Source: Paucibacter sp. Y2R2-4
Lineage (GTDB): Bacteria; Pseudomonadota; Gammaproteobacteria; Burkholderiales; Burkholderiaceae_C
Assembly: GCF_025717535.1 (NCBI RefSeq)
Contig: NZ_JAJIRO010000003.1
Location: forward strand, 1 to 64,000
Direction: 5' to 3'
DNA length: 64,000 nt
Made by a program: the position numbers and the translations under genes. This document shows, piece by piece, positions 27,349-59,501 of the stretch; the first letter of the stretch is position 1; each line of letters begins with the position of its first letter. The notes beneath the pieces were generated by a model. It did not search any database. It saw only the letters and a list, made by a program, of their open reading frames with translations, and was not told where the DNA came from.

Positions 27349-27570
27349 TGTGTATAAGCTTGTGGATGGATCTTGAATAACTGAGGGCTTGTCCACAGGC
27401 CGAGGCAAGCGCCGCGACTTGTTCAGTTTGCTGCTTCCAGTTCAAGGCCTTCGGCACACAAGCTTTCACTGCTCCCAAGTGCTTGAATTTAGATGGAAAA
27501 ACAGCCTTGTCCACAAAGACAGCCCGCCCCTATTACAACCACTATCTTTCTAAATCTAAATTCTTATAAG
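27349..27570. other. Origin-like element 1: DnaA-box cluster with AT-rich stretch
   Basis: Four near-consensus DnaA boxes: TGTGTATAA at 27349-27357 (one mismatch, minus orientation), TGTGGATGG at 27361-27369 (two mismatches, minus), and TTGTCCACA at 27389-27397 and 27507-27515 (one mismatch each, plus). The last box is followed by a GC-rich spacer, then CTA-type trinucleotides (27530-27546) and a strongly AT-rich stretch (27547-27570). This order matches a bacterial basal origin element. It fills the roughly 385-bp gap between the methyltransferase and queD. No gene is seen here. Confidence 0.6.
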
Positions 27571-27708
27571 AGAAGAGAGAACTCGTTTGAGACTCAAACC
27601 CTGATGTGCTGGGGGATAGCCGTGCTGATGCCAGCGCTGCGCACGAAGTGCGCGCTTCATGTCACACTCTTGCCCCACGCACCCGCCTGATGCCGGTGTT
27701 GGAATCCC

Positions 27709-28827
27709 TTGAAGACAAGCACCCAACAACCCACGATTTACTCCGCCTCTTGCGGCTTTGAGTCTGCCTGCCAGATCTCGGCCCTGCCTGAAGGCCACCG
27801 CAGCCGCGGCCTGCATGGCCACAGCTATTTCGCCACCATCCGCGCCCATTTGCCCGAAGGCTGGGCACCGTTTCCTGGTGCCGAGGTGGAAGAACTGCGC
27901 CGCCGCTTGGAAGCCTGCGTGGCGCCGCTTGACCATGCGCTGCTGAACGCCTCCATCACCGAGCCGACCGACGAAAACATTGCACGCTGGATCAAGCATC
28001 GCCTGGAGCATGAATTCGGCGTGCCCGGCATTCAGCAGGTGGGGATTCAAAGCACCCAGCATTCGGGCGTGGATCTCGACGCCGATGGCATGGCTCATGT
28101 GTGGCGGCGTTATCGCTTCCAGGCCGCGCATCGCCTGCCCAATGTGCCGGCCGGCCATAAATGTGGCCGCATGCATGGCCATGGCTTTGAAGTGATTGTT
28201 CATGCCAACCAAGATTTGGGTGAGCGCGATCTGAGCGTGGACTACGACCATCTGGACGAGGTCTGGGCGCCTTTCCACATGCAGCTGAACTACCACTGCC
28301 TGAACGAGATCGAAGGGCTGAGCAATCCGACCAGCGAAGTGATCTCGGCCTGGTTGTGGGCACGCATGAAGCCGCAGTTGCCCGAGCTGTCGTGGTTGAC
28401 CGTCTACGAGACCGGCTCTTGCGGCGCCAATTTCGATGGCCAGCATTACCGCATCTGGAAGGAGCTGACGTTGGACAGCGCGATCCAGCTCAAGCGCGCA
28501 CCGAACGAGCATCCGCTGCGCGGCATCCATGGCCACACCTACACCTTGCGTCTGCATCTGAGTGCGGAGTTGGATCAACTGATGGGTTGGACGGTGGACT
28601 TCGGCGACGTCAAGACGCAGTTCGATCCGATCTTCAAGGCGATTGACCACCGGCCTTTGTTCGAGATTGCCGACCTGCCTGATGGCGACACCGCCAGTCT
28701 TTCGGCCTGGATCCTGGCCAAGGGCCGCGCCGTGCTGCCGCAGTTGGACCGGGTCGATATGTACGAAACCCGCGGCTGCGGCGCCATCGTCTGCGCCGAT
28801 GTGGAAGGGCCGGTGATTCCCGTATGA
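27709..28827 (+). CDS. queD: 6-carboxytetrahydropterin synthase with three T-fold units
   Basis: Makes 6-carboxy-5,6,7,8-tetrahydropterin in queuosine and 7-deazaguanine synthesis. At 372 aa it is about three times the usual 120-aa QueD. The middle unit (about 132-255) is complete: FQAAHRL, candidate nucleophile Cys152, zinc-binding HGHG (156-159) and YETGSCG. The first unit (about 10-130) keeps HGHSY but has Cys in place of the first zinc His. The third (about 258-365) keeps HGHTY and YETRGCG but lacks the first His and the Cys. The start is a TTG. The gene overlaps queE by 4 bp (ATGA). Confidence 0.88.
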   Translation: MKTSTQQPTIYSASCGFESACQISALPEGHRSRGLHGHSYFATIRAHLPEGWAPFPGAEVEELRRRLEACVAPLDHALLNASITEPTDENIARWIKHRLEHEFGVPGIQQVGIQSTQHSGVDLDADGMAHVWRRYRFQAAHRLPNVPAGHKCGRMHGHGFEVIVHANQDLGERDLSVDYDHLDEVWAPFHMQLNYHCLNEIEGLSNPTSEVISAWLWARMKPQLPELSWLTVYETGSCGANFDGQHYRIWKELTLDSAIQLKRAPNEHPLRGIHGHTYTLRLHLSAELDQLMGWTVDFGDVKTQFDPIFKAIDHRPLFEIADLPDGDTASLSAWILAKGRAVLPQLDRVDMYETRGCGAIVCADVEGPVIPV

Positions 28828-29459
28828 CTTACGCCGTCAAGGAAATGTTCTACACCTTGCAAGGCGAGGGCGCACAGGCCGGCCGGGCCTCGGTGTTCTG
28901 CCGTTTTGCGGGTTGTAATTTGTGGAATGGCCGCGAGGAAGACCGGGCCAGCGCGGTCTGCAATTTCTGCGACACCGATTTCATCGGCACCGATGGTGAA
29001 GGCGGCGGAAAGTTTGCCGACGCTGAAGCACTGGCCTCAGCGATTGCCAGCAAATGGCCGCAAGGCCAGCCCGGCAAGCCCTATGTGGTGTGCACCGGCG
29101 GCGAGCCACTTTTGCAATTGGACAAGGCTTTGATCGACGCTTTGCATGCGCGAGGTTTTGAGATTGCGGTCGAGACCAATGGCACCCAGCCCGCGCCTGA
29201 AGGCCTGGACTGGATTTGCGTCAGCCCCAAGGCCGATGCCGAGATCGTGTTGACCCGTGGCCATGAATTGAAACTGGTGTTTCCTCAGCCCTTGGCGCGC
29301 CCGGAGCGCTTTGCTGCCATGGACTTCCAACATTTCTTCCTGCAGCCCATGGACAGTGTGTTGAAGACTCAGCACACCCGCGACGCCGTGGCCTACTGCA
29401 TGGCCCATCCGCAGTGGCGTTTGTCGGTGCAGATGCATAAGGTGATTGGGATCGCTTGA
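28824..29459 (+). CDS. queE: 7-carboxy-7-deazaguanine synthase
   Basis: 211-aa radical SAM enzyme converting the QueD product to 7-carboxy-7-deazaguanine. The N-terminal pattern YTLQGEGAQAGR and FCRFAGCNLW fits QueE. The cluster-binding cysteines are spread as C(NLWNGREEDRASAV)CNFC, the long-spaced form seen in many proteobacterial QueE proteins. CTGGEPLLQ and VETNGT follow. It is coupled to queD by an ATGA overlap. queC and queF are not in the window. Confidence 0.94.
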   Translation: MTYAVKEMFYTLQGEGAQAGRASVFCRFAGCNLWNGREEDRASAVCNFCDTDFIGTDGEGGGKFADAEALASAIASKWPQGQPGKPYVVCTGGEPLLQLDKALIDALHARGFEIAVETNGTQPAPEGLDWICVSPKADAEIVLTRGHELKLVFPQPLARPERFAAMDFQHFFLQPMDSVLKTQHTRDAVAYCMAHPQWRLSVQMHKVIGIA

Positions 29460-29788
29460 TTCGCGCTGAAGCTTGAGAGCCAGCATTCGATTGCTGATGG
29501 CTGCTCCTTAGCAGGCCGACTGGGCACTCTGCCCCGCTCCTGTCCCCCGCCCCAGGCTATGCCTGGGTCTCCTCCTTTACCTCGCGGTTCAGAGCGCCCA
29601 GCCGTCCTGCTCCGGCAGGATTGGTCGTTGGCCAAAAGCAAACGCCAAGGGCGTCGGGTGTACGGTGAAGCGAAGTAAAGGGGGAGGGTCTGGCGTAGCC
29701 AGAGCCGGAGGACATGAGCGGAATCGTGCACCCGATGGACTTGGCCAGAGAAGGGCGTTGGTCCTATGCGCTAGACAGATTCACCGAC
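29460..29788. other. Intergenic region with hairpin, no gene supported
   Basis: About 330 bp between queE and the OmpW terminator. No frame here looks like protein on either strand. The sequence includes a perfect 6-bp inverted repeat TCTGGC/GCCAGA at 29689-29703 inside a purine-rich stretch, and several GC-rich, translationally poor segments. It could be a decayed gene end or a member of an interspersed intergenic repeat family. No second copy is present in this window, so that idea is untested. Confidence 0.4.
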
Positions 29789-29817
29789 AAAAAAAGGGGA
29801 GCTTGAAGCTCCCCTTG
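29789..29817 (-). terminator. Rho-independent terminator of the OmpW gene
   Basis: Inverted repeat with arms AAGGGGAGCTT and AAGCTCCCCTT separated by one or two bases. Read on the minus strand it is followed by seven T residues. It lies about 32 bp past the OmpW stop codon, where a terminator for that transcript is expected. Confidence 0.88.
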
Positions 29818-29848
29818 CTGCTTCACAAGGAAGCTATGAATTTTTTGC

Positions 29849-30526
29849 TCAGAAGGTATAGCCAATACCAAACGACAAAGCCAAGGGGTTCAGTTCGGTT
29901 TCGATGGTTTGGCCGGTGGACAAAGTGCCGGTGGTCTTCAACAAGACCTTGGTGACCGAGCCGTTCAATGACCAGCGATCGCTGAACTTCACATCCAAGC
30001 CCAGTTGCACCGTTGGGCCATAAGCGTTCTTCATCGACATGGTGGTCGGATTGCTGGGACTGCCGCCTGTCAGACCCGAAAGCGCTGAAGTGGCCTTGGC
30101 GTTGGAGAACACCGCATAGGTCAGACCGGCGCCCACAAAGGGACGGAACATGCTGCTCGGAGCACCAAAACGGTACTGTGCCGTCACGGTGATGGGCAAG
30201 GCTTTGACGTCGGCCAACTTGCCGGTCCCCTCGATCGCGCCGGCCCCCATCACATCGTGTTTGAAGGGGATGCCGATGGGCACATCGATCGCGATGTTCT
30301 CGGTCAGCATGTAGAAGACACCGCCGGTGATTTGACTGGCGTCTTTGATATCGACCTTGGTGCCTACCAAACTTGGCGCACTCAGGTCACCGCTGCTAAC
30401 GGCTGGTTTGATCATGGTGGCGCCGAGTCGAACGGTGAGGCTGCCGACCGCTTGGGCTTGGGCGCTGCCGGCGGCCGACATGGCCATCAAGGCCATCGTG
30501 GCCAGACAGAAGAGATTGTTTTTCAT
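29849..30526 (-). CDS. OmpW family outer-membrane protein
   Basis: 225-aa small beta-barrel. A signal peptide ends at AQAQA (about residue 25). The mature part shows the OmpW pattern: SLTVRLGATMIKP at the first strand, NIAIDVPIGIPFKHD, QYRFGAPSSMFRPFVGAGLTYAVF, and the terminal strand LSFGIGYTF ending in Phe, the usual outer-membrane assembly signal. It probably passes small hydrophobic molecules. AGGAG lies about 10 bases before the start. It lies 30 bp downstream of the GDSL lipoprotein gene on the same strand, so the two are probably one operon ended by the terminator at 29789-29817. Confidence 0.93.
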   Translation of the reverse strand: MKNNLFCLATMALMAMSAAGSAQAQAVGSLTVRLGATMIKPAVSSGDLSAPSLVGTKVDIKDASQITGGVFYMLTENIAIDVPIGIPFKHDVMGAGAIEGTGKLADVKALPITVTAQYRFGAPSSMFRPFVGAGLTYAVFSNAKATSALSGLTGGSPSNPTTMSMKNAYGPTVQLGLDVKFSDRWSLNGSVTKVLLKTTGTLSTGQTIETELNPLALSFGIGYTF

Positions 30527-30556
30527 GGTGCGATTGCTCCTGTGCTTTGCCGCGCT

Positions 30557-31702
30557 TTACAGCCAGCCCTTGAGGGTCAAGCTCTTGGAGATCAGCTGGC
30601 TGAGCAGCTGATGACCATAGGGCGTCGGGTGGAAACCGTCGGAGAAGGCATATGTCTTCCACCAGTCGGCACCCGTCACGCCACTGGGCGGCGCCGCGTT
30701 CAAGGCCGTGGCCGAACACGTCGCAAAGGTATAGGTCGGCAGACCATCGGCACCCATGCCGGTGATGGGGCAAGCCGGTGTCTTCACATTGGTCAGGCCG
30801 AACTGAGCCGGCATGGAGACCTGGTCATTGAAGGCGGTGTAGAAGTCGGCAATCGCGACCCGGCTTTCACCGGCAAACTTGCTGTCCAGCTGCTTGTTGA
30901 AGCCCTCCATCCACGAGCGGAACAAGGCCTCTGACTGCGCACGCGCGGTGGCACCGGCTGTACCGCCACCCGAGGCTGCGGCAATGCCGTCCAAGACCAT
31001 CTGGAAGCGCGGTGTGTTGGTGATGCTGGGCATGTTCAGAATCACCACGCGTTGAGCAGACTTGTCCAGAACATTCGTCTTGATGCTGGCTTGGAAAGTG
31101 TCTGCCAGGGCCTGCATATAGGTCACGCCGCCGGCGGCAATGGTGCTGGCGCCACCGGCCATGATGGCGCCGACCTGGGTAGGCGTCAGCAAAGTGCCGA
31201 GCAGCTTCATGTAGGAAGCGCCGCTGTCTTTGGGGATGGCGAGATAGGCGCCGACCAAGTCGGCTGCATCATTGCCGCCACCGTCGATCACCACCAAGTC
31301 GGTGGCGTTGTAGGCACCCAGCGCAGCCGCTGTCGCCAATTGCACCGGCACGCGGCGCGGATCAGCGGCTACCAGCGTGGCGGAGTTGATCACGCCGCCG
31401 CCAATGGCGAAATTGGTGCACCCTGCTTTTGAATTGGGGGCAAAAGTCGTTCCGGTGAAAGCGTAGAAGTTGCACAGGGTCTTGCCGTACGCGGCGGCAA
31501 TGCGCTCCGGGTAGATCTGGGTGTCCGCGCTCTGCACGGTGAACTTGAGCCCAAAGGTGCCCGAGTCAGCCAAGCTGTCACCGAACACCTTGACGGTGCT
31601 GACCTCAATTGGGGGCGTAGTGTCCGCGGTACTGCCGCCGCCACAGGCGGCAACAAGCAAGCTGCTTGCGAGCGCCGCGATCGTGAACTTCAAATGTTTC
31701 AT
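30557..31702 (-). CDS. GDSL/SGNH hydrolase lipoprotein
   Basis: 381-aa exported esterase-like protein. The start MKHLKF is chosen because AGGAGA lies eight bases upstream; a further ATG adds nine residues. A lipobox (LLVAAC) precedes GGGS, so it should be lipid-anchored. Block I is VFGDSLADSG with the nucleophile Ser. Block III-like DLVVIDGGGNDAADL gives the oxyanion Asn. Block V is DGFHPTPYGH with the catalytic Asp and His. The substrate ester is unknown. Its neighbour OmpW downstream may supply passage for the products. Confidence 0.9.
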   Translation of the reverse strand: MKHLKFTIAALASSLLVAACGGGSTADTTPPIEVSTVKVFGDSLADSGTFGLKFTVQSADTQIYPERIAAAYGKTLCNFYAFTGTTFAPNSKAGCTNFAIGGGVINSATLVAADPRRVPVQLATAAALGAYNATDLVVIDGGGNDAADLVGAYLAIPKDSGASYMKLLGTLLTPTQVGAIMAGGASTIAAGGVTYMQALADTFQASIKTNVLDKSAQRVVILNMPSITNTPRFQMVLDGIAAASGGGTAGATARAQSEALFRSWMEGFNKQLDSKFAGESRVAIADFYTAFNDQVSMPAQFGLTNVKTPACPITGMGADGLPTYTFATCSATALNAAPPSGVTGADWWKTYAFSDGFHPTPYGHQLLSQLISKSLTLKGWL

Positions 31703-32145
31703 GGGGTGTCTCCTGCTATTGGCCTTCATTGAGGCTCTGACTTTGACCGACCATGCAATCTAGCCACGCTTGTCGGCCCCCGGCATGGTGGTTTGCCCGA
31801 GATGACGTGATTTGCCATGATTTTTTGTGACGCTTTGACGACAAGAAAGTGCGTTTCTGTCACCCAGGCGACAAGTTTTTTAAGTGGTGTTGAAGCGGCC
31901 TTTGAGACACAAGTTCCGCCCCCGCTCAAAAGAGCCGATCACGCTATCTTTTTTCTAGGCCCAGGACTCTAATCACCTGCGTTTCGTCGGGACCAGACGA
32001 CAAGCTCAAGGCTTTCACCGGTGAGGCCCTCGTCTTCTGTTTGCACAATCGATCGCTCTTGTTCAGCGCCTTTTTTGGTGCTTGAACCCCCAGCTCCGGC
32101 AATAGATCAGAGCACCAACGATTTTGAGAAAAAGGAGACACCCTC
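31703..32145. promoter_or_regulatory. Divergent promoter region between the GDSL and PhoD genes
   Basis: 443 bp with no gene. It must hold the promoters of both neighbours. Three direct copies of CGACAAG occur at 31840-31846, 31870-31876 and 31998-32004; the first two are 30 bp apart, about three helical turns. AAGGAG precedes the PhoD start. A weak Pho-box-like match on the minus strand at 31828-31845 is discussed under findings and not relied on here. Confidence 0.5.
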
Positions 32146-34470
32146 ATGGACAGACGTAGCTTTTTGCGCAAATCGGTCATTCAGACCGGCGCCTTGATTA
32201 CCGCCTCATCCGCACTGACCGGCCTCAGTGGTTGCATGAGCAATGACAACGGCTCAGGCATTGAGCCCCTGCCTCCCACCTTCCCCGGCAGCAGCACCGC
32301 CTTGCCCGACACGCCTCCCGCCAGCGGTGTCTTCAAGTTCCCGCAAAGCGTGGCCTCCGGTGACCCCAAGAGCGACGGCGCCCTGTTGTGGGCGCGTGTG
32401 GTGCCGAACTCGGCCGACGATGTCGTCACGGCCGCAGCCGACGCGAACTTCCAGGTGAAACTGCGCATCAGCAGCGCCGACAACGCCGCCCTGCTGGGCA
32501 GCAACACCGCACTGGGCGGCAATATCGACAGCGAGGTCGATGTGCCGGTCTACGCTTTCTATGACAACACGGTGCGCCACAAGATCAGCGGCCTCAAGCC
32601 TGCGACGGTCTACTACTACCAGTTCACAGCTGGCGACAGCCGTTCCAAGGTCGGCCGCTTCAAGACCGCACCGGCGGTGGATGCCGACATCGACAAGCTG
32701 AAGTTCGCCTTCATGACCTGCCAGGACTGGAGCGTCAACCACTGGGCCGGCATGAGCAGCCTGGCCAGGGAAGACCTGGACTTCATCGTCCACTTGGGCG
32801 ACTACATCTACGAAGCCGTCGGTGCCAGCTATCAGGCCGGCGCGGTGGAAGCCGCCCACGGCGCCTTGGTGCTGCCGAATGGCGTGGCCCTGCCCAGCGG
32901 CGGCAAGTACGCCAACACCTTGGTGGACTACCGCTACCTCTACAAGCGCTATCGCAGCGACCCGCGCCTGCAAGCCTTGCATGAGCGCTTTGCCTTCGTC
33001 GCCATCTGGGACGACCATGAGTTCTCGGACGACTGCTGGCAAGACCGCGAAACCTATGACAACGGCAGCTACAACGCTGCGACCGGTGGTGACAATGTGG
33101 CCCAGCCCAGCCGTCGCCGCTCCGCCAGCCAAGCCTGGTTTGAGTTCATGCCAGCCGAGGTGTCCTTCACCTTGGACGCCGCCTCGGGCATCAACAATAT
33201 TCGCATCTACCGTGACCTGAAGTTCGGGAAGCTGATGCATCTGGTGATGACCGACGAACGCCTCTACCGCGCCGACCACCTGATCCCCGAAGCTGCGCCG
33301 AACCCCTCCACCGGCCAGCCACTGGGCGAGATTGGTGCCCGCTATATGGTGCCCGAGGCCAGCTTGGCCGCCGTCGAAAAACAGAAGATCGATGTGGCGG
33401 CCTCCTTCGGTCTGGCCGACAAGCTCACCATGGTCAGCATGTTGGGTACCAGCCAGCGCGCTTGGTGGAAGGACACCATGAAGGCTTCGACCGCCTTGTG
33501 GAAGATCTGGGGCAATGAAACCTCACTGCTGAAGATGAGCGTGAACGGTGCCGCACTGCCCACCGCGCCTGCCGATCTGAAAACACGCTTCATCTTGAAC
33601 GCCGACCAATGGGACGGCTACAACGGTGAGCGCAAAGACCTGATGGCGCACCTGAGCAGCAACAAGATCAGCAATGTGGTGGCCATCACCGGCGACTTGC
33701 ATGCCTTCTTTGCCGGCGAGGTGATGGACGACTACGCCGCCGCCACACCCACGCCGGTGATGGTGGACCTGGTCACCTCCGGTATCTCCAGCAACTCCTT
33801 CTTCAGCTACTTTGTTGGCGCCTCGGCCAACCCCGCATTTGCGCCGGTAAAGCCTTTGGTGGTGATCAATGAAGTGGCAGCCGAAGGCATTGCCATCCAG
33901 ATGCTGTCGGCGGCCGTCGCCATGGCTGCGGGTGTCACCGATCTGAGCAATACGGCGGCGGTGCAAGCGGCAGTGATGGGCGCCATCGGTGCCGGCAAGA
34001 TTCCGGCTGCTGCGGTCAGCGCGACCCCTGGCCTGAGCACGGCGCCGATCAACACCTTTGACGAGACGCTGATGGGCAATATGGGCAACACCATTGCGGC
34101 CACCAACGCTGCTCTGGCAGGCGCCAGCAAGTCGGTGCCGGCCATGACGCTGTACGGCCTGATCGCCCAAAACCTGGCCACGGCCTTGGGCATTCCGGTC
34201 GCCTTTGTGCCGGCCGCCGAGGTGGTCAAGCGCATGAACCCCTTCGCCAACCCGACGACCGGTGTGCCGCCGGCCATCAACAACCCCTGGATTCGCCATG
34301 CCGACTCCAACGCCCAGGGCTATGCGGTGGTCAGCCTGAGCAAGACCGAATTGGTTTGCGACTTCAACAAGATTGCACCGCTGAGCGCTGGCGTGGCGCC
34401 GACGACTCCAATCGCTTCGGTCAAACGGGTGCGCGTGCCTGTGGGCAAGGCCCAGGTCACCCTGGGCTAA
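32146..34470 (+). CDS. PhoD-like alkaline phosphatase, Tat-exported lipoprotein
   Basis: 774-aa phosphodiesterase/phosphomonoesterase of the PhoD family. The N-terminus has the twin-arginine motif DRRSFLRK and a lipobox-like LSGC, so it is probably Tat-exported and possibly lipidated. Metal-site motifs appear in order: FMTCQDW, HLGDYIYE, WDDHEFSDD and, later, ITGDLHAFFAG. Usual PhoD proteins are about 520-600 aa. The extra length is an Ala-rich insertion of about 130 residues (roughly residues 575-705) after the last metal motif. A strong AAGGAG precedes the start. A terminator follows at 34538. Confidence 0.92.
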   Translation: MDRRSFLRKSVIQTGALITASSALTGLSGCMSNDNGSGIEPLPPTFPGSSTALPDTPPASGVFKFPQSVASGDPKSDGALLWARVVPNSADDVVTAAADANFQVKLRISSADNAALLGSNTALGGNIDSEVDVPVYAFYDNTVRHKISGLKPATVYYYQFTAGDSRSKVGRFKTAPAVDADIDKLKFAFMTCQDWSVNHWAGMSSLAREDLDFIVHLGDYIYEAVGASYQAGAVEAAHGALVLPNGVALPSGGKYANTLVDYRYLYKRYRSDPRLQALHERFAFVAIWDDHEFSDDCWQDRETYDNGSYNAATGGDNVAQPSRRRSASQAWFEFMPAEVSFTLDAASGINNIRIYRDLKFGKLMHLVMTDERLYRADHLIPEAAPNPSTGQPLGEIGARYMVPEASLAAVEKQKIDVAASFGLADKLTMVSMLGTSQRAWWKDTMKASTALWKIWGNETSLLKMSVNGAALPTAPADLKTRFILNADQWDGYNGERKDLMAHLSSNKISNVVAITGDLHAFFAGEVMDDYAAATPTPVMVDLVTSGISSNSFFSYFVGASANPAFAPVKPLVVINEVAAEGIAIQMLSAAVAMAAGVTDLSNTAAVQAAVMGAIGAGKIPAAAVSATPGLSTAPINTFDETLMGNMGNTIAATNAALAGASKSVPAMTLYGLIAQNLATALGIPVAFVPAAEVVKRMNPFANPTTGVPPAINNPWIRHADSNAQGYAVVSLSKTELVCDFNKIAPLSAGVAPTTPIASVKRVRVPVGKAQVTLG

Positions 34471-34537
34471 TCTAGGGTCAATCAAGCCAGCAGGGCGCTT
34501 TAGGAGGCCTTGCCAGGGCTGCAAACGGTATGAGTGA

Positions 34538-34566
34538 GAGGGGAGCCAGTGGCTCCCCTTTTTTTC
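34538..34566 (+). terminator. Rho-independent terminator of the PhoD gene
   Basis: Arms AGGGGAGCC and GGCTCCCCT around an AGT loop, followed directly by a run of seven or more T residues on the plus strand. It is about 70 bp beyond the PhoD stop codon. Confidence 0.9.
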
Positions 34567-34638
34567 GTCTGGACGAGGCGCAAAGAACCATGAAATTCAG
34601 CGTCTGCACAGGCTCCGTGCGCTGTCAAGGAACAAGGC

Positions 34639-34855
34639 TGTGGATAAAAAAAGTACAAGAAGGGGTTTATCCACAGGCCCAAGCGCAAATCCGGACTTGT
34701 TATCGCTTCAGCACTTTGCAAACCCGGGTTCCGCCCACATGGTTTTCTAAGACTCAAGTGATTGAGCTAAAAAGGAAAAAACGGCTTATCCACAGGAAAG
34801 GGTCGCCTCTACTAAGACTACCAATTTAAAAAATTACATTGCTATGAATAAGAAG
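34639..34855. other. Origin-like element 2: three perfect DnaA boxes with AT-rich stretch
   Basis: Three exact TTATCCACA boxes in 156 bp: 34639-34647 (minus orientation), 34667-34675 (plus) and 34786-34794 (plus). After the last box come a GC-rich spacer (34795-34808), CTA-type trinucleotides (34809-34820) and an AT-rich stretch (34823-34855). This is the layout of a basal replication origin: DnaA boxes, GC cluster, DnaA-trios, then the unwinding element. It sits in the gap of about 360 bp between the PhoD terminator and the MazG-like gene, in a window that also carries parA, parB, rsmG, mnmG and parS. I consider it the better of the two origin candidates. Confidence 0.72.
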
Positions 34856-34924
34856 TCGGAGCACTTTTTTTGAAACTGCACACTGGGGCCCGCAGGCGCT
34901 TTGGACATGCCACACTTGCGACCC

Positions 34925-35251
34925 ATGGACATAGCAACTTTGCAAAAGCGGCTGCGTGAGTTCGCCGCTGAGCGCAACTGGCAGCCTTATCAAACGCCCA
35001 AGAACCTGGCTATGGCCATGGTGGTGGAAGCTGCTGAACTGGTGGAAATCTTTCAATGGCTGACACCTGAAGAATCGCAGCAACTTCAAAGCGACCCGGC
35101 CAAACACCAGCATTTGGGCGAAGAGATCGCCGACGTGATGCTTTACCTTTTGCAGATTGCTGACCACAGCGGAATCGACCTGGAAGCTGCCTTAGAGCGA
35201 AAGCTGGCCTTGAACGCTGTCAAACACCCGGCTCCAACAGCGGCGCAATGA
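34925..35251 (+). CDS. MazG-like nucleotide pyrophosphohydrolase
   Basis: 108-aa all-helical house-cleaning NTPase that probably removes non-canonical or excess dNTPs (dCTPase/RS21-C6 branch). The start MDIATLQKRL is preferred; a TTG 24 bases upstream is unlikely. Metal-binding residues follow the family pattern: EAAELVEIFQW, then EEIADVMLYLLQIAD. Length is normal for the single-domain group. It overlaps the next exonuclease gene by 4 bp (ATGA), suggesting a shared role in nucleotide or nucleic acid quality control. It is the first gene right of origin-like element 2. Confidence 0.92.
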   Translation: MDIATLQKRLREFAAERNWQPYQTPKNLAMAMVVEAAELVEIFQWLTPEESQQLQSDPAKHQHLGEEIADVMLYLLQIADHSGIDLEAALERKLALNAVKHPAPTAAQ

Positions 35252-51799: not shown

Positions 51800-52711
51800 T
51801 TATTGCGGGCCGCGCAGACGGTCGATCAGACCGTTCAGCTCATCGAGCGATCCAAATTGAATCGACAACTCGCCTTGTTCGCCGCGCTTGGTGCGCTTCT
51901 TGACTCGCACCTCGACGACGGCGGTCAACAGATCAGATAACTCTTCTTCTAAGCGCAAGAGATCGCGGCTCTTGTCGCCTTTGACGCGCAGCAGCGGCGT
52001 CTGCCGGCCTGCGCCTTGGCGTGACACCAGCTTCTCGGCCTCGCGCACGCTGAGCTTCTTGGCGGCGATCTCGGTGGCGCAGGTGATCTGATGGGCGCCG
52101 TCCAAAGGCAGCAGCGCACGCGCGTGGCCCATGTCGATATCGCCGGCCATCAGCATGTTTTGCACCGGTTCCACCAATTGCAGCAGGCGCAGCAGATTGC
52201 TGGCGGCGCTGCGCGAGCGGCCCACCGCTTGCGCGGCCTGCTCATGGGTCAGGTGGAACTCGTTCACCAGGCGCTGCAGGCCTTGCGCTTCTTCCAGCGG
52301 ATTCAGGTCTTCACGTTGGATGTTTTCGATCAGGGCCATGGCGGCCGCGGCCTCGTCGGGGACGGCCTTGACCAGCACCGGCACCTCGCGCAAACCGGCC
52401 AGCTTGGCGGCCCGGAAGCGGCGTTCACCGGCGATGATCTCGTAGCGCACTTCGCTGAGGTCTGAAGGCGGCTTGATGGGTCGCACCAGGATGGGCTGCA
52501 TGATGCCCTGGCCCTTGATGCTCTCGGCCAGCTCATAGAGCGAGCCTTCGTCCATGCGGGTGCGTGGCTGGTACTTGCCGGCTTGCATCTGTTCCAGGCG
52601 CAAGGCGCTAGGGCTGCCTTCGCGGGCGGCGGCCGCTTCGGAATCGCTGACTTTGGGGCCGAGCAGTGCTTCAAGGCCGAGGCCGAGGCCTTTGGGTTTT
52701 TTTGTGACCAT
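51800..52711 (-). CDS. parB: Chromosome-partitioning protein ParB
   Basis: 303-aa CTPase and DNA clamp that loads on parS and spreads. The ParB/Sulfiredoxin fold has GERRFRAAKLAG, and the next block reads ALIENIQREDLNPLEEA. The helix-turn-helix follows (THEQAAQAVGRSRSAASNLLRLL). The C-terminal dimerisation part ends in SLDELNGLIDRLRG. Its partner parA is about 2.8 kb away, not adjacent, with a hydrolase, argC and two acetyltransferases between. Three parS-like palindromes occur at 56.4-57.6 kb. Confidence 0.97.
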   Translation of the reverse strand: MVTKKPKGLGLGLEALLGPKVSDSEAAAAREGSPSALRLEQMQAGKYQPRTRMDEGSLYELAESIKGQGIMQPILVRPIKPPSDLSEVRYEIIAGERRFRAAKLAGLREVPVLVKAVPDEAAAAMALIENIQREDLNPLEEAQGLQRLVNEFHLTHEQAAQAVGRSRSAASNLLRLLQLVEPVQNMLMAGDIDMGHARALLPLDGAHQITCATEIAAKKLSVREAEKLVSRQGAGRQTPLLRVKGDKSRDLLRLEEELSDLLTAVVEVRVKKRTKRGEQGELSIQFGSLDELNGLIDRLRGPQ

Positions 52712-54751: not shown

Positions 54752-55543
54752 TCAGTCGACCACCGACTCCGGGCTGCGGTAGTGATAGCGGTAGGCAAAA
54801 ACAAAGCCGAGGCGCGCATAAACACGCTGGGCCACCGCGTTATCCGAACCCACTTGCAGATAGGCTTGCTTAGCACCTTCGGCTCGAGCCTCTTGCAGCA
54901 ACTGCCTGCACAGCTGAAATGCATGACCACGACCGCGCTGCTCAGGCGGCGTGAAGATGTCGTACAGACCGACGAGGGTGTCTTCGCGGGCGAACTGCCC
55001 GCAAGCCAGGAGGGCGCCTTGCGCATCTCGCAGGGCAAAGCCCCGATAGACCACAGGCGACTTTTTCATGCGCTCGGCGTGGGCGGCGATGGCGGTCGCG
55101 GATGAGCCGCGCAGGGCGCCGACCAGGGTGGCATAGGCTTCCGCCTCCAGGCGTTCCAAACGATGTTCTCCAGCGCTGTCCTCAGGGCCCTGGGCGTCGA
55201 TGCGATTCAGCACCCAGACATCGGCTGAATCAAAAGCCAGCCAGCCTTTGGCGGCCAAGAGCTCGTCAAGATTTGCCGGTTGGCTGTAAGGCGTAACGCG
55301 GACGATAAGCGGCAATTTGGCGGCCTTGAAGGCGGCCTCGCTGCGCGCCAGCAGTTCGTCCAAAGGCAGGCTGCCTTGGGCCAGCGCATTGATGCAGCGC
55401 GAGCGTTTGGCCTTGCCGGGGGAGAGGCGGATCAGCCAGCCATCCACCGTTCTTTGCTGCGGCGGTGCGCTGGCGTTCAGCCCGGCTTCTTCGGCGCGAC
55501 GCGCCAGCGCTTCATCGACCAAGCCGGCTTGCTCCTGAATCAC
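54752..55543 (-). CDS. GNAT acetyltransferase with extended N-terminal domain
   Basis: 263-aa protein with a second, N-terminal half of about 130 residues that looks like a degenerate GNAT domain (VDGWLIRLSPGKAKRSRCINA, PLIVRVTPYSQPANL). The C-terminal half has the functional acetyl-CoA motif LYDIFTPPEQRGRGHAFQL and VYARLGF. Its start overlaps the parA stop by 4 bp (ATGA), so it is probably in the parA transcript. No link to partitioning is known. Confidence 0.87.
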   Translation of the reverse strand: MIQEQAGLVDEALARRAEEAGLNASAPPQQRTVDGWLIRLSPGKAKRSRCINALAQGSLPLDELLARSEAAFKAAKLPLIVRVTPYSQPANLDELLAAKGWLAFDSADVWVLNRIDAQGPEDSAGEHRLERLEAEAYATLVGALRGSSATAIAAHAERMKKSPVVYRGFALRDAQGALLACGQFAREDTLVGLYDIFTPPEQRGRGHAFQLCRQLLQEARAEGAKQAYLQVGSDNAVAQRVYARLGFVFAYRYHYRSPESVVD

Positions 55544-56310
55544 ATCGTGTTGACGCGGCGCACCATTTCACGTGCGAAGTCCACGAAGGCATGCGCGCCT
55601 TTGGATGAGGGATCAAAGACCACGCCGGGCAGGCCGTAGCTGGGCGCTTCGGCCAAGCGCACATTGCGCGGAATGACGGAGTCGAACACCTTGTCGCCGA
55701 AGTGGCTCTTCAGTTGATCGCTGACCTGGTTTTGCAAGGTGATGCGGGGGTCGAACATGACCCGCAGCAGGCCGATGATTTGCAGGTCGGGATTCAGGTT
55801 GGCATGCACCTGCTTGATGGTGTTGACCAGGTCCGACAAGCCTTCGAGAGCAAAATACTCGCACTGCATGGGCACGACCACGCCGTGAGCGCAGCACAAG
55901 CCGTTCAGCGTCAGCATCGACAGCGAGGGCGGACAGTCGATCAGCACAAAGTCGTAATCGTCTTTGGCGGCGGCCAAGGCGGTCTTCAAACGACGTTCGC
56001 GGCGCTCCAGGTCGACCAATTCCACCTCAGCCCCGGCCAGTTCGCGGTTGGCGCCCAAGACGTCGTAGCCGGCTTTTTCACTGTGTTGCTTGGCTTCGGC
56101 CACGCTGCAGGATTCCAACAGCACGTCATAGACGCTCAGCTCCAACTGGCGCTTGTCGATGCCCGAACCCATGGTGGCATTGCCTTGAGGGTCGAGGTCC
56201 ACAACCAGCACGCGTTGGCCGACCTTGGCCAAGCCGGCGGCGAGGTTGACGGTGGTGGTGGTCTTGCCGACCCCGCCTTTTTGGTTTGCAACGCAGAAAA
56301 TCTTGGCCAT
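55540..56310 (-). CDS. parA: Chromosome-partitioning ATPase ParA/Soj
   Basis: 256-aa deviant Walker ATPase. The P-loop is KGGVGKTTTTVNLA, the second Walker motif lies in DFVLIDCPPSLSMLT, and the nucleoid-facing region carries the usual basic residues. The absence of an N-terminal helix-turn-helix fits the chromosomal type. It follows rsmG by 64 bp and overlaps a GNAT gene. With ParB and parS it should move the origin region to the cell poles. Confidence 0.97.
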   Translation of the reverse strand: MAKIFCVANQKGGVGKTTTTVNLAAGLAKVGQRVLVVDLDPQGNATMGSGIDKRQLELSVYDVLLESCSVAEAKQHSEKAGYDVLGANRELAGAEVELVDLERRERRLKTALAAAKDDYDFVLIDCPPSLSMLTLNGLCCAHGVVVPMQCEYFALEGLSDLVNTIKQVHANLNPDLQIIGLLRVMFDPRITLQNQVSDQLKSHFGDKVFDSVIPRNVRLAEAPSYGLPGVVFDPSSKGAHAFVDFAREMVRRVNTM

Positions 56311-56374: not shown

Positions 56375-57040
56375 TTAGTTTTTTGGTCGAATCCAGATCA
56401 AACAACGCTGGGCATCCAGGTTCGGAACCTCCAGTTGTTCCACGTGAAACACATCCAGGTCGGCCGGCAGGGCGGCGATTTCCTCGGCCGGGTGTTGGCC
56501 CTTCATGGCCAACCAGATGGAACCTGATTCAGCCCCCGGCTTCAGGTGCTGGCGGGTGAGGGTGGTGAAGTCCAGCAGCGAAGCAAAGGCGCGCGAGGTG
56601 ATCAAGTCAAAGGGCGCCGTCTTCAGCGCCTCGACCCGCGAATGCTCGCCATGCAGATTGGGTAGACGCAGCTCCGCCGCCACTTGCTTGATGAAGGTGG
56701 CTTTCTTGGCCACGGCGTCCACGCAGGTGACGTCGATCTCGGGGTTGCAGATGGCGATGACCACGCCCGGCAGGCCGCCGCCGCTGCCCACGTCCATCAA
56801 GCGCAGCGGCTTGCCCGCCGCGTGTCGACGCAGGGCCGGCAGCAAGCTCAGACTGTCGATCAGGTGATGGGTCAGCATGGCTTGCGGGTCGCGCAGCGAG
56901 GTCAGGTTGTAGACCTTGTTCCACTTGGCGATCAAGGCCAGATAGGCCAGCAGGGCTTCTTGCTGCTGAGCACTCAAGTCGAGTTGCAAACGGGCGGCGG
57001 CGTCTGCCAGGGGCTGACGCAGAGGGGCGAGATCGGTCAT
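56375..57040 (-). CDS. rsmG: 16S rRNA (guanine527-N7)-methyltransferase RsmG
   Basis: 221-aa SAM-dependent enzyme that methylates G527 of 16S rRNA. The SAM motif is LMDVGSGGGLPGVVIAI. The next strand is VTCVDAVAKKATFIKQVA. The usual N-terminus with AKWNKVYNLTSLRDP is present. It lies between mnmG (42 bp) and parA in the conserved gid-par order. A parS-like palindrome lies inside it. Confidence 0.97.
   Translation of the reverse strand: MTDLAPLRQPLADAAARLQLDLSAQQQEALLAYLALIAKWNKVYNLTSLRDPQAMLTHHLIDSLSLLPALRRHAAGKPLRLMDVGSGGGLPGVVIAICNPEIDVTCVDAVAKKATFIKQVAAELRLPNLHGEHSRVEALKTAPFDLITSRAFASLLDFTTLTRQHLKPGAESGSIWLAMKGQHPAEEIAALPADLDVFHVEQLEVPNLDAQRCLIWIRPKN
56436..56451. other. parS: parS site, one mismatch, inside rsmG
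   Basis: Sequence TGTTCCACGTGAAACA, one base from the parS consensus TGTTTCACGTGAAACA. In the rsmG frame it encodes VFHVEQ. Position and proximity to parA and parB support a working site. Confidence 0.85.
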
Positions 57041-57082
57041 CTTGGGATTCTTCTTTTGGGTGACGCGGTGGCGCTTTGAGAT

Positions 57083-59077
57083 TCAGGCTGCGCTGTCTTG
57101 GGTGCTGGTTTGGGCTTGAGTTTGGCCATCGGTGCCAAAACCCTTGAAGCGGTGCTTGCGCAAATGCACCAGCAGCAAAGAGATGGATGCGGGTGTGACG
57201 CCAGAAATCCGCGAAGCCTGGCCCAGGGTTTCGGGCTTGTGCTTGCCCAGCTTTTGGCGCGCCTCGAAGGAGAGGGCGCTGACTTGCGAGTAGTCCAGGT
57301 CTTCCGGCAAGCGCATATTCTCGTAGTGCGAGGCGCGGGCCACATCTTCGGTCTGCTTGTTGATGTAGCCGGCGTATTTGACGCTGACCTCGACTTGCTC
57401 GATCACGGCTTCAGCCAAAGTCTCGCCCAACTCGGCCTTCAGTGTTTCACGTGAAACACCGGCATTGGGCCGAGCGATGCTGGCCACTTCGGCCAGGGTG
57501 TCGTAGACCACGCCCGGGCGACGCAGCAGGTCGATGAAGTTGTATTCGCGTTCCAGCGCTTTGCCGACCAGGCGCTCGGCATCGGCTGCCGGCAGGATGC
57601 TGGGGTGCACCCAGGTCGACTTCAGCTTCTCTGTTTCACGTGAAACAGCATCGCGTTTGCGGTTGAAGGCTTCCCAGCGGGCGTCGTCCACCAAGCCCAG
57701 TTCGCGGCCGGCTTCGGTCAAGCGCATGTCGGCGTTGTCTTCACGCAGCTGCAGGCGAAACTCGGCGCGGCTGGTGAACATGCGGTAGGGCTCGGTCACG
57801 CCCTTGGTGATCAGGTCGTCCACCAACACGCCCAGATAGGCTTGGTCACGGCCGGGCAACCAGGGGCCTTGGCCGCGCACTTGCAGGGCGGCATTCAAGC
57901 CGGCGAACAGGCCTTGAGCGGCGGCTTCTTCGTAGCCGGTCGTGCCATTGATCTGGCCAGCGAAGAAGAGGCCGGCGATGTCGCGGGTTTCGAAGCTGGA
58001 CTTCAGGCCACGCGGGTCGAAGTAGTCGTATTCGATGGCGTAGCCGGGCCGCATGATGTGGGCGTTCTCCAGGCCCGGAATCGAGCGCACGGCGGCCAGT
58101 TGGATGTCGAAGGGCAGGGAGGTGGAGATGCCGTTGGGGTAGTACTCGTGGGTGGTGAGGCCCTCGGGTTCCAGAAAGATCTGGTGGCTGTCCTTGTCGG
58201 CGAAGCGGTTCACCTTGTCTTCGATGCTGGGGCAGTAGCGCGGGCCCACGCCTTCGATCACGCCGGTGAACATCGGGCTGCGGTCAAAGCCGGAGCGGAT
58301 GATGGCGTGCGTGGCCTCCGAGGTGTGGGTGATCCAGCAAGGCACTTGGCGCGGGTGCTGCGAAGCCTGGCCCATGAAGCTGAAGACCGGCAGCGGGTCC
58401 AGGTCACCGTCTTGCTCCACGCATTTGGAAAAGTCGATCGAGCGGCCGTCGATGCGCGGCGGCGTGCCGGTCTTCAGGCGCCCTTGCGGCAGCTTCAGTT
58501 CTTTCAGCCGGGCCGAGAGGCTGATGGCCGGCGGATCACCGGCGCGGCCGGCGGCGTAGTTCTGCAGGCCGACGTGGATGCGGCCATCGAGAAAGGTGCC
58601 GGCGGTCAGCACTACTGCGCGGGCACGGAACTGCAAGCCCATCTGAGTGACGGCGCCGACCACGCGCTCAGTCGTGCCATCGGACTCCACCAAAAGATCG
58701 TCCACCGCCTGCTGGAAGAGCCAGAGATTGGGCTGGTTTTCCAGCCGGTAGCGGATGGCGGCCTTGTACAAAACCCGGTCGGCTTGAGCACGGGTGGCGC
58801 GCACGGCGGGGCCCTTGGAGCCATTCAAAATGCGGAACTGAATGCCGGCCTCGTCGGTGGCGGCCGCCATGGCGCCGCCCAGGGCGTCGACTTCCTTGAC
58901 CAAATGGCCCTTGCCGATGCCGCCGATCGAGGGGTTGCAACTCATCTGCCCCAGGGTCTCGATGTTGTGCGTCAGCAGCAGGGTGGCGCAGCCCATGCGG
59001 GCGGCGGCCAGCGCGGCCTCGGTGCCGGCATGTCCACCGCCGACCACGATGACATCAAATTCCTTGGGGTATTGCAT
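57083..59077 (-). CDS. mnmG: tRNA uridine 5-carboxymethylaminomethyl modification enzyme MnmG
   Basis: 664-aa FAD protein that works with MnmE on U34 of tRNA. The start [15 protein letters not shown] is preferred; the frame upstream lacks family resemblance. The FAD site is [19 protein letters not shown]. Later motifs are [22 protein letters not shown] and [10 protein letters not shown]. The gene opens the gid-par run mnmG-rsmG-parA. It carries two parS sites, which encode VSRET in its reading frame. Confidence 0.98.
57443..57458. other. parS: parS site, perfect, inside mnmG
   Basis: Exact TGTTTCACGTGAAACA palindrome in the mnmG coding sequence, read in frame as GVSRETL on the minus strand. 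This is the universal ParB-loading consensus. Confidence 0.96.
57632..57647. other. parS: parS site, perfect, inside mnmG
   Basis: Second exact TGTTTCACGTGAAACA palindrome, 189 bp from the first, read in frame as AVSRETE. Two perfect sites and one near-perfect site within 1.2 kb form a parS cluster. Confidence 0.96.
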
Positions 59078-59156
59078 GAGCTGATTCGCCTTGAAAACAC
59101 GGGCCGCAGCGCCTGTGAAAATCCAGCGCGGGCAAACCTTGAATTTTACGCGGGCC

Positions 59157-59165
59157 TGTGGATAA
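59157..59165 (-). promoter_or_regulatory. Perfect DnaA box upstream of mnmG
   Basis: TGTGGATAA (TTATCCACA on the minus strand) in the roughly 130-bp divergent region between mnmG and the YkgJ-like gene. It is single, with only a short AT-rich piece (TTGAATTTTA) nearby. It may regulate mnmG or be a remnant of an ancestral origin next to gidA. Confidence 0.6.
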
Positions 59166-59204
59166 GTGCGGGCTTTGCTGCCGCTCTCGAAGGACAATTG
59201 CGCC

Positions 59205-59501
59205 ATGAAATGCCGTGATCATTGCGCCGCCTGTTGCATCGCCCCCTCCATCAGTTCTCCCATCCCTGGCATGCCGGTGGTGAATGGCATTTCCAAGCCG
59301 GCCGGCGTGCGCTGCATTCAGCTCGACGAGCAAGACCGCTGCAAGATTTTTGGCCAGCCCGAGCGCCCGGCAGTCTGCGGCTCGCTGCAGCCCTCGGCCC
59401 TGATGTGCGGCGAGAACCGCGAGCAGGCGATGCGCTGGCTGGGTTGGATGGAGCGCGAAACCCAGCCCAGTGGGTCCGCTGGACCCGCTTTGCAGGATTG
59501 A
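59205..59501 (+). CDS. YkgJ-like cysteine cluster protein
   Basis: 98-aa protein with an eight-Cys pattern: [12 protein letters not shown], then [29 protein letters not shown] and LMCGE. It probably binds zinc or an iron-sulfur cluster; the function is unknown. The start MKCRDHC is chosen because AAGGA lies about 11 bases upstream. It is divergent from mnmG. Confidence 0.85.

Follow-up and report, generated by a model that had tools for sequence, protein, structure and literature searches.

A putative twinned chromosome origin, built of two homologous oriC modules, in a Paucibacter/Roseateles-like bacterium

The stretch of DNA considered here (Paucibacter sp. Y2R2-4, contig NZ_JAJIRO010000003.1, positions 1 to 64,000, hereafter the window) carries in two of its intergenic gaps an element of the same type, a chromosomal replication origin (oriC) module of approximately 230 bp, and both elements, named ORI1 (element 1) and ORI2 (element 2), have the same orientation. 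Quite probably, the window holds the twinned chromosome origin of a Paucibacter/Roseateles-like bacterium, in which ORI2 would be the main start of replication and ORI1 an auxiliary one. An earlier note on this DNA had pointed out that the two gaps share one order of parts (boxes for the initiator protein DnaA, a GC-rich spacer, DnaA-trios and an AT-rich stretch), and that this order fits the basal bacterial origin of boxes plus trios; the order is seen directly in the sequence, and both elements are of that kind. Their parts are the following.

34628..34855, plus strand: ORI2, complete and stronger oriC module upstream of mazG (nhmmer 169.6 bits; cmsearch 152.3 bits)
34639..34647, minus strand: ORI2 box A, exact TTATCCACA (sequence)
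34667..34675, plus strand: ORI2 box B, exact TTATCCACA (sequence)
34786..34794, plus strand: ORI2 box C, exact TTATCCACA, 119 bp past box B (sequence)
34809..34823, plus strand: ORI2 DnaA-trio tract CTA-CTA-AGA-CTA-CCA (direct reading; alignment)
34821..34855, plus strand: ORI2 AT-rich stretch, presumed unwinding region (direct reading)
27349..27577, plus strand: ORI1, complete second oriC module upstream of queD (nhmmer 123.5 bits; cmsearch 121.1 bits at 27352-27577)
27349..27357, minus strand: ORI1 extra upstream DnaA box TTATACACA, one mismatch, 12 bp ahead of box A (sequence)
27361..27369, minus strand: ORI1 box A, degenerate CCATCCACA, 2 mismatches (direct reading; alignment)
27389..27397, plus strand: ORI1 box B TTGTCCACA, one mismatch (sequence)
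27507..27515, plus strand: ORI1 box C TTGTCCACA, one mismatch, 118 bp past box B (sequence)
27530..27544, plus strand: ORI1 DnaA-trio tract CTA-TTA-CAA-CCA-CTA (direct reading; alignment)
27545..27577, plus strand: ORI1 AT-rich stretch, presumed unwinding region (direct reading)

The three exact boxes first noticed in ORI2 and the four boxes of ORI1, each with one or two mismatches, are thus all present. When aligned with the modules of relatives (31 rows), both elements follow a plan that begins with box A on the minus strand and box B on the plus strand 28 bp further, continues with a TTGTT motif, a CCCACA motif and box C on the plus strand 118–119 bp beyond box B, and ends in a short GC-rich spacer, the trio tract and AT-rich DNA. 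The succession of the basal system, in which trio repeats follow a DnaA box and lead into AT-rich DNA, is therefore complete in each module, and the common box spacing (28 and 118–119 bp) indicates that ORI1 and ORI2 are homologous, beyond a mere likeness in the order of their parts.

The full model of the module, R1, contains both window elements, so that its matches to them (by cmsearch and in the family survey below) follow by construction; in the rest of the window it finds nothing beyond the two modules at E ≤10. As an independent test, a hidden Markov model (HMM, searched with nhmmer) was built without the four rows of the same genus. It recovers ORI2 with 169.6 bits (E 1.3e-49) and ORI1 with 123.5 bits (E 1.5e-35), and its next match in the window, within mnmG, reaches 10.1 bits (E 0.64); dinucleotide-shuffled windows gave any match in 6 of 100 cases, with a top score of 9.0 bits. 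The genome (5.13 Mb, 9 contigs) contains 13 exact copies of TTATCCACA, three of them in ORI2 and the remaining ten lone and scattered. Neither another cluster of exact DnaA boxes nor a third module was found in the whole genome, and the richer cluster elsewhere that would have spoken against the two elements is absent. Chance clustering of the boxes is ruled out by this genome-wide count together with the HMM and shuffle test. A known RNA element was also considered for ORI1 and rejected, since no Rfam family reaches its gathering threshold anywhere in the window.

From known DnaA biology, a sequence of events can be proposed in which the cell's single DnaA (Bac_DnaA_C has one match per genome in the sets of 30, 80 and 80 genomes searched) would bind boxes A to C and extend from box C across the spacer onto the trio strand, after which the AT-rich stretch would melt and the helicase would be loaded. 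ORI2, with its consensus boxes, would be the main start in this genome, and ORI1, with boxes of lower affinity, would be an auxiliary start, able to fire or to assist and otherwise replicated passively. Because the modules lie so close to each other (7 kb in the window, 2–7 kb in relatives), either start would replicate the other almost at once, and together they would form a single initiation zone in which one start is stronger than the other.

The genes that separate the modules and follow them are given below. For an analysis of synteny, the fused queD served as bait, and the best 80 of 361 candidate named loci were examined.

27709..28827, plus strand: queD, fused protein with three PTPS stretches (Pfam; between the modules in all 30 loci that have both)
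28824..29459, plus strand: queE, radical SAM (Pfam 28.4 bits, cut-off 29.5; synteny)
34901..35251, plus strand: MazG-like gene, right neighbour of ORI2 (Pfam; synteny)

The genes reported earlier between the elements are largely recovered by Pfam (PTPS/QueD, OmpW, GDSL lipase and PhoD), with the QueE radical-SAM match just below its cut-off. The queD product is an unusual fusion, a single 372-aa protein with three QueD-type PTPS stretches, which aligns over its full length in three relatives.

The order ORI1–queD–queE–(0 to several genes)–ORI2–mazG is found in the window and in 29 of the 80 loci, a few relatives having extra genes between ORI2 and mazG. Among the others, 19 have ORI2 only, 5 have ORI1 only and 27 have neither, some of them owing to contig ends; once the loci cut by a contig end are set aside, 17 with ORI2 only and one with ORI1 only are left. 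Both elements are accordingly conserved in relatives, which disposes of the lack of conservation that would have undermined the original observation. In a queD/queE tree, each of the three main branches of a 59-row Roseateles/Paucibacter/Mitsuaria group includes loci with both modules, the ORI2-only lineages being nested among these, and the state "both" requires at least nine changes, four of them forced by well-supported branches. The simplest reading of this quick tree, which has many open forks, would be an ancestral pair from which ORI1 was lost repeatedly. A tree of the modules themselves mostly groups ORI1 copies with ORI1 copies and ORI2 copies with ORI2 copies, with exceptions (L176, L179 and L170, while in L185 and L186 both copies fall in one group), and because of these exceptions and its poor resolution the duplication is left undated. 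Two contigs of metagenome-assembled genomes, L219 and L222, titled Actinomycetales and Methylotenera, have a queD placed among Burkholderiales rows in the queD/queE tree, probably through binning contamination.

The 30 loci with both modules allow the two copies to be compared part by part. Mean column identity is 0.80 in motifs and 0.44 in spacers for ORI1, and 0.85 and 0.45 for ORI2; when three clades are taken separately, the difference between motif and spacer is reached in 0 of 500 column shuffles for either copy. The motif columns were picked from the conserved alignment, which favours this gap for ORI1 and ORI2 alike; the telling point is that, judged by these identities, ORI1 shows it nearly as strongly as ORI2. 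Box B has the form TT[A/G]TCCACA in 30/30 copies of ORI1 and 22/30 of ORI2 (identity 0.943 vs 0.911), so that there are sites at which ORI1 is not the weaker copy, and box C has this form in 24/30 ORI1 copies, with an identity of 0.918 against 0.927 in ORI2. An extra box directly upstream of box A occurs in 8 of 30 ORI1 copies and in 1 of 30 ORI2 copies, and the mean AT content of the AT-rich stretch is 0.73 and 0.76, respectively. Box A is relaxed in ORI1 (0.72, vs 0.90 in ORI2), and the trio tract is less conserved there (0.72 vs 0.89). Across the nine Paucibacter-like loci the ORI2 boxes are consensus or near-consensus and those of ORI1 mostly weaker; in the window, too, ORI1 is the weaker of the two, as had been noted, both in its HMM score and in its mismatched boxes.

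These differences bear on the main rival explanation, which we consider a plausible reading if not the favoured one: only ORI2 would unwind, and ORI1 would be a DnaA-binding partner or a titration or timing site (bipartite or datA-like) whose trio tract is a leftover. The weaker boxes of ORI1 in the window, and the lower conservation of box A and the trio tract over the 30 loci, are consistent with such a role, as is the statement, in a passage of PMC6669920, that unwinding of the bipartite origins of Bacillus subtilis and Helicobacter pylori in vitro needs just one of the two regions. A titration site, however, has no need of a trio tract, and that of ORI1 is conserved well above the spacers (0.72 vs 0.44), with a box C as conserved as that of ORI2.

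It is quite improbable that ORI1 is the decaying relic of a former origin, a view close to the earlier description of this element as perhaps decayed. Such a relic would explain why ORI1 scores lower than ORI2 in 24 of the 30 loci, has a degenerate box A and is absent from several lineages, but it would be expected neither to keep box B, box C and the trio tract well above spacer level, with box B conserved no less than in ORI2, nor to persist in each of the three main branches of the group.

The region is likely to be the chromosome origin: GC skew turns at the modules here and in the majority of the relatives looked at, and parAB-rsmG-mnmG and the only parS sites of the genome are near. Across 27–38 kb of the window the skew passes from near-zero or negative to positive, and the cumulative skew over the 64 kb reaches its minimum at 28 kb, with an almost equally deep one at 36 kb. 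Beyond the right end of the window, 10/10 sampled stretches of the same contig (C3) are positive, and 8/8 stretches of the contig that bears dnaA (C4) are negative. In a genome of the same genus, G228, dnaA, at 5.6 kb, is on one contig with both modules, at 74.8 and 81.3 kb, and the cumulative skew of its first 100 kb wavers, drops to a minimum at 76 kb and then climbs; in the first 160 kb of G258, where dnaA is at 1.3 kb and the modules are at 96.9 and 100.8 kb, the minimum falls at 100 kb. The stretches to the left of the modules of G154 are negative (4/4) and those to the right positive (13/15), while dnaA lies 612 kb off, in the positive arm. The skew also turns at the single module of G079, 139 kb from dnaA: 5/7 stretches between the two are negative and 6/7 beyond, up to 2.0 Mb, are positive. 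Over sampled stretches, rather than whole chromosomes, the switch is thus seen in the window, G228, G258, G154 and G079 and is ambiguous in G007 and G075; the minimum elsewhere that could have refuted the two elements does not appear, as the minimum is at the modules over the 64-kb window and the fetched stretches of G228 and G258.

The origin neighbourhood in the window comprises the following features.

51800..52711, minus strand: parB (TIGR00180, 189 bits, cut-off 58.45)
55540..56310, minus strand: parA-type ATPase (AAA_31 220.7 bits; NF041546 108.1 bits, under its cut-off of 180)
56375..57040, minus strand: rsmG (gidB) (TIGR00138, 159.7 bits)
57083..59206, minus strand: mnmG (gidA) (TIGR00136, 881.6 bits)
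56436..57647, no strand: three parS sites, at 56436, 57443 and 57632, the sole matches of the genome to GTTNCACGTGNAAC

The block parAB-rsmG-mnmG lies 17–24 kb to the right of the modules, and the parS sites, about 22–23 kb from ORI2, sit in rsmG and mnmG, beside parA and parB. A single exact DnaA box (59157-59165) lies inside the start of mnmG. The gene dnaA, on contig C4, has no module beside it. Adjacency of oriC to dnaA is frequent and not necessary, E. coli being an exception.

A survey with model R1 of 299 genomes from the GTDB family of the window (141 genera) found the module in 286, and by this distribution it is the family's predicted oriC. Two or three modules, counted by eye from the survey table, are present in 92 genomes from 49 genera. 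The pair lies on one contig in 87 of these, on the same strand in 78, less than 1 kb apart in 28 and less than 10 kb apart in 74; the modules of G121 are near opposite ends of its single contig, which makes their true distance uncertain, and in G188 and G039 the third match is weak or incomplete. Within the genus of the window, each of the five genomes sampled has two modules, which in G013 and G144 are on separate contigs.

The relation to dnaA was examined in 80 single-module genomes, hand-picked from 194 in favour of assemblies with few contigs, and in 80 of the 92 multi-module genomes, 12 being left out. The single module lies at most 1 kb from the end of dnaA in 51/80 genomes, elsewhere on the same contig in 23/80 and on another contig in 6/80, and in several of the adjacent loci the next reading frame, read by eye with no search made, resembles dnaN. 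In the multi-module set dnaA is on a module contig in 59 genomes and on another contig, counted as non-adjacent, in 21, and a module is within 1 kb of it in 6/80; a Fisher test of doubling against dnaA adjacency ignores kinship and is descriptive only. An ancestral module would probably have stood directly after dnaA, a position that many relatives retain, and a copy would probably have moved out, the old one being lost and the new locus doubled. In G272 (C1:2357454, 2386114) and G132 (C3:280054, 304596), one module is at dnaA and the second lies 29 and 25 kb away, respectively, in opposite orientation; the arrangement may represent an intermediate step in the relocation of an origin.

In an order-wide sample R1 matches 56 of 200 genomes, 5 of them from the window's family, and the best match outside it has an E of 5.4e-13, many being weak. 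One genome of another family of the order has three weak matches in tandem within 1.6 kb (G353:C1:1853644-1855261), and G305 and G472 have two matches each within about 1 kb.

Several observations weigh against the reading of ORI2 as main and ORI1 as auxiliary start of a twinned origin. The skew cannot tell ORI1 from ORI2 in the window, given the near-equal minima, and the GC skew at third codon positions of queD (-0.155 with both modules, -0.159 with ORI2 only, -0.141 with neither) is uninformative as to which module fires because gene-specific codon use dominates. ORI1 is missing from the 17 untruncated loci that keep ORI2, and is therefore dispensable there; it outscores ORI2 in six of the 30 loci (L169, L170, L171, L176, L179 and L185), so that the "main" module may differ by lineage. 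As regards the location of the origin, contigs C4 and C3 are unjoined and the orientation of dnaA differs from the expectation based on G228; of four stretches farther right in G228, two are near zero, the other two being clearly positive; the skew of G075 is mixed; and the minimum of G007, at 1.544 Mb, is nearer to dnaA (1.524) than to the modules (1.605 and 1.608), with a second minimum at 1.600 Mb. Still, the third rival, in which replication starts next to dnaA and the modules serve as regulatory sites for DnaA, is very improbable: the frequent dnaA adjacency of single modules and the G007 minimum speak for it, but the dnaA-bearing stretches of G000, G007, G075, G154 and G079 contain no module, the skew of G154, G079, G228 and G258 turns at the modules, and the dnaA-adjacent relatives have the same module at dnaA.

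A wider proposal, which we put forward only tentatively, is that a large share of one bacterial family may have two, sometimes three, functional DnaA-driven origins per chromosome, within a few kb, which would form a redundant or cooperating zone and would have evolved after oriC left the dnaA locus. The putative twinned oriC is here an inherited trait shared across genera, and one copy is absent from some related lineages; such natural pairs would allow one to ask how a cell with two starts keeps initiation to one round per cycle, why doubling accompanies the departure from dnaA and how origins move. Annotation that assumes oriC at dnaA would also be wrong for many genomes, since 29/80 single-module and 74/80 multi-module genomes lack a module on the contig of dnaA within 1 kb of that gene.

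In the openly licensed PMC literature, among the titles and abstract starts of the matches listed, a twin oriC arrangement was not found. The comparison with Bacillus and Helicobacter drawn at the outset holds in part. The bipartite oriC of Bacillus subtilis and Helicobacter pylori likewise has two DnaA-box regions split by coding DNA, but its halves flank dnaA, whereas the modules of the window flank queD-queE and each has its own presumed unwinding region, with a trio tract and an AT-rich stretch that are read from sequence only. Trios are described in parts of PMC6669920 and PMC10721633, the former also dealing with bipartite origins. Each module resembles the basal unwinding system of B. 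subtilis incC, as presented in a portion of PMC6669920, in having a DnaA box, a spacer, trios and an AT-rich stretch; what differs is that there are two complete copies, 2–7 kb apart, in the same orientation and away from dnaA. Two natural origins on one chromosome have been reported for the fused chromosomes of Vibrio cholerae NSCV1 and NSCV2, both being active in NSCV1, and there, according to PMC6284228, two unlike origin types were joined through chromosome fusion. One origin per chromosome was given as the bacterial norm by Gao (2015; PMC4403523), with no evidence at that time of two functional origins used on one chromosome, together with isolated predicted double origins in Acidaminococcus, Dehalobacter, Ralstonia pickettii and Ochrobactrum. 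These cases are alike in that two oriC-like loci per chromosome are predicted from sequence; they differ in being single genomes with loci 150–882 kb apart or a doubled dnaA region, whereas here one homologous module is twinned within kilobases and conserved over genera.

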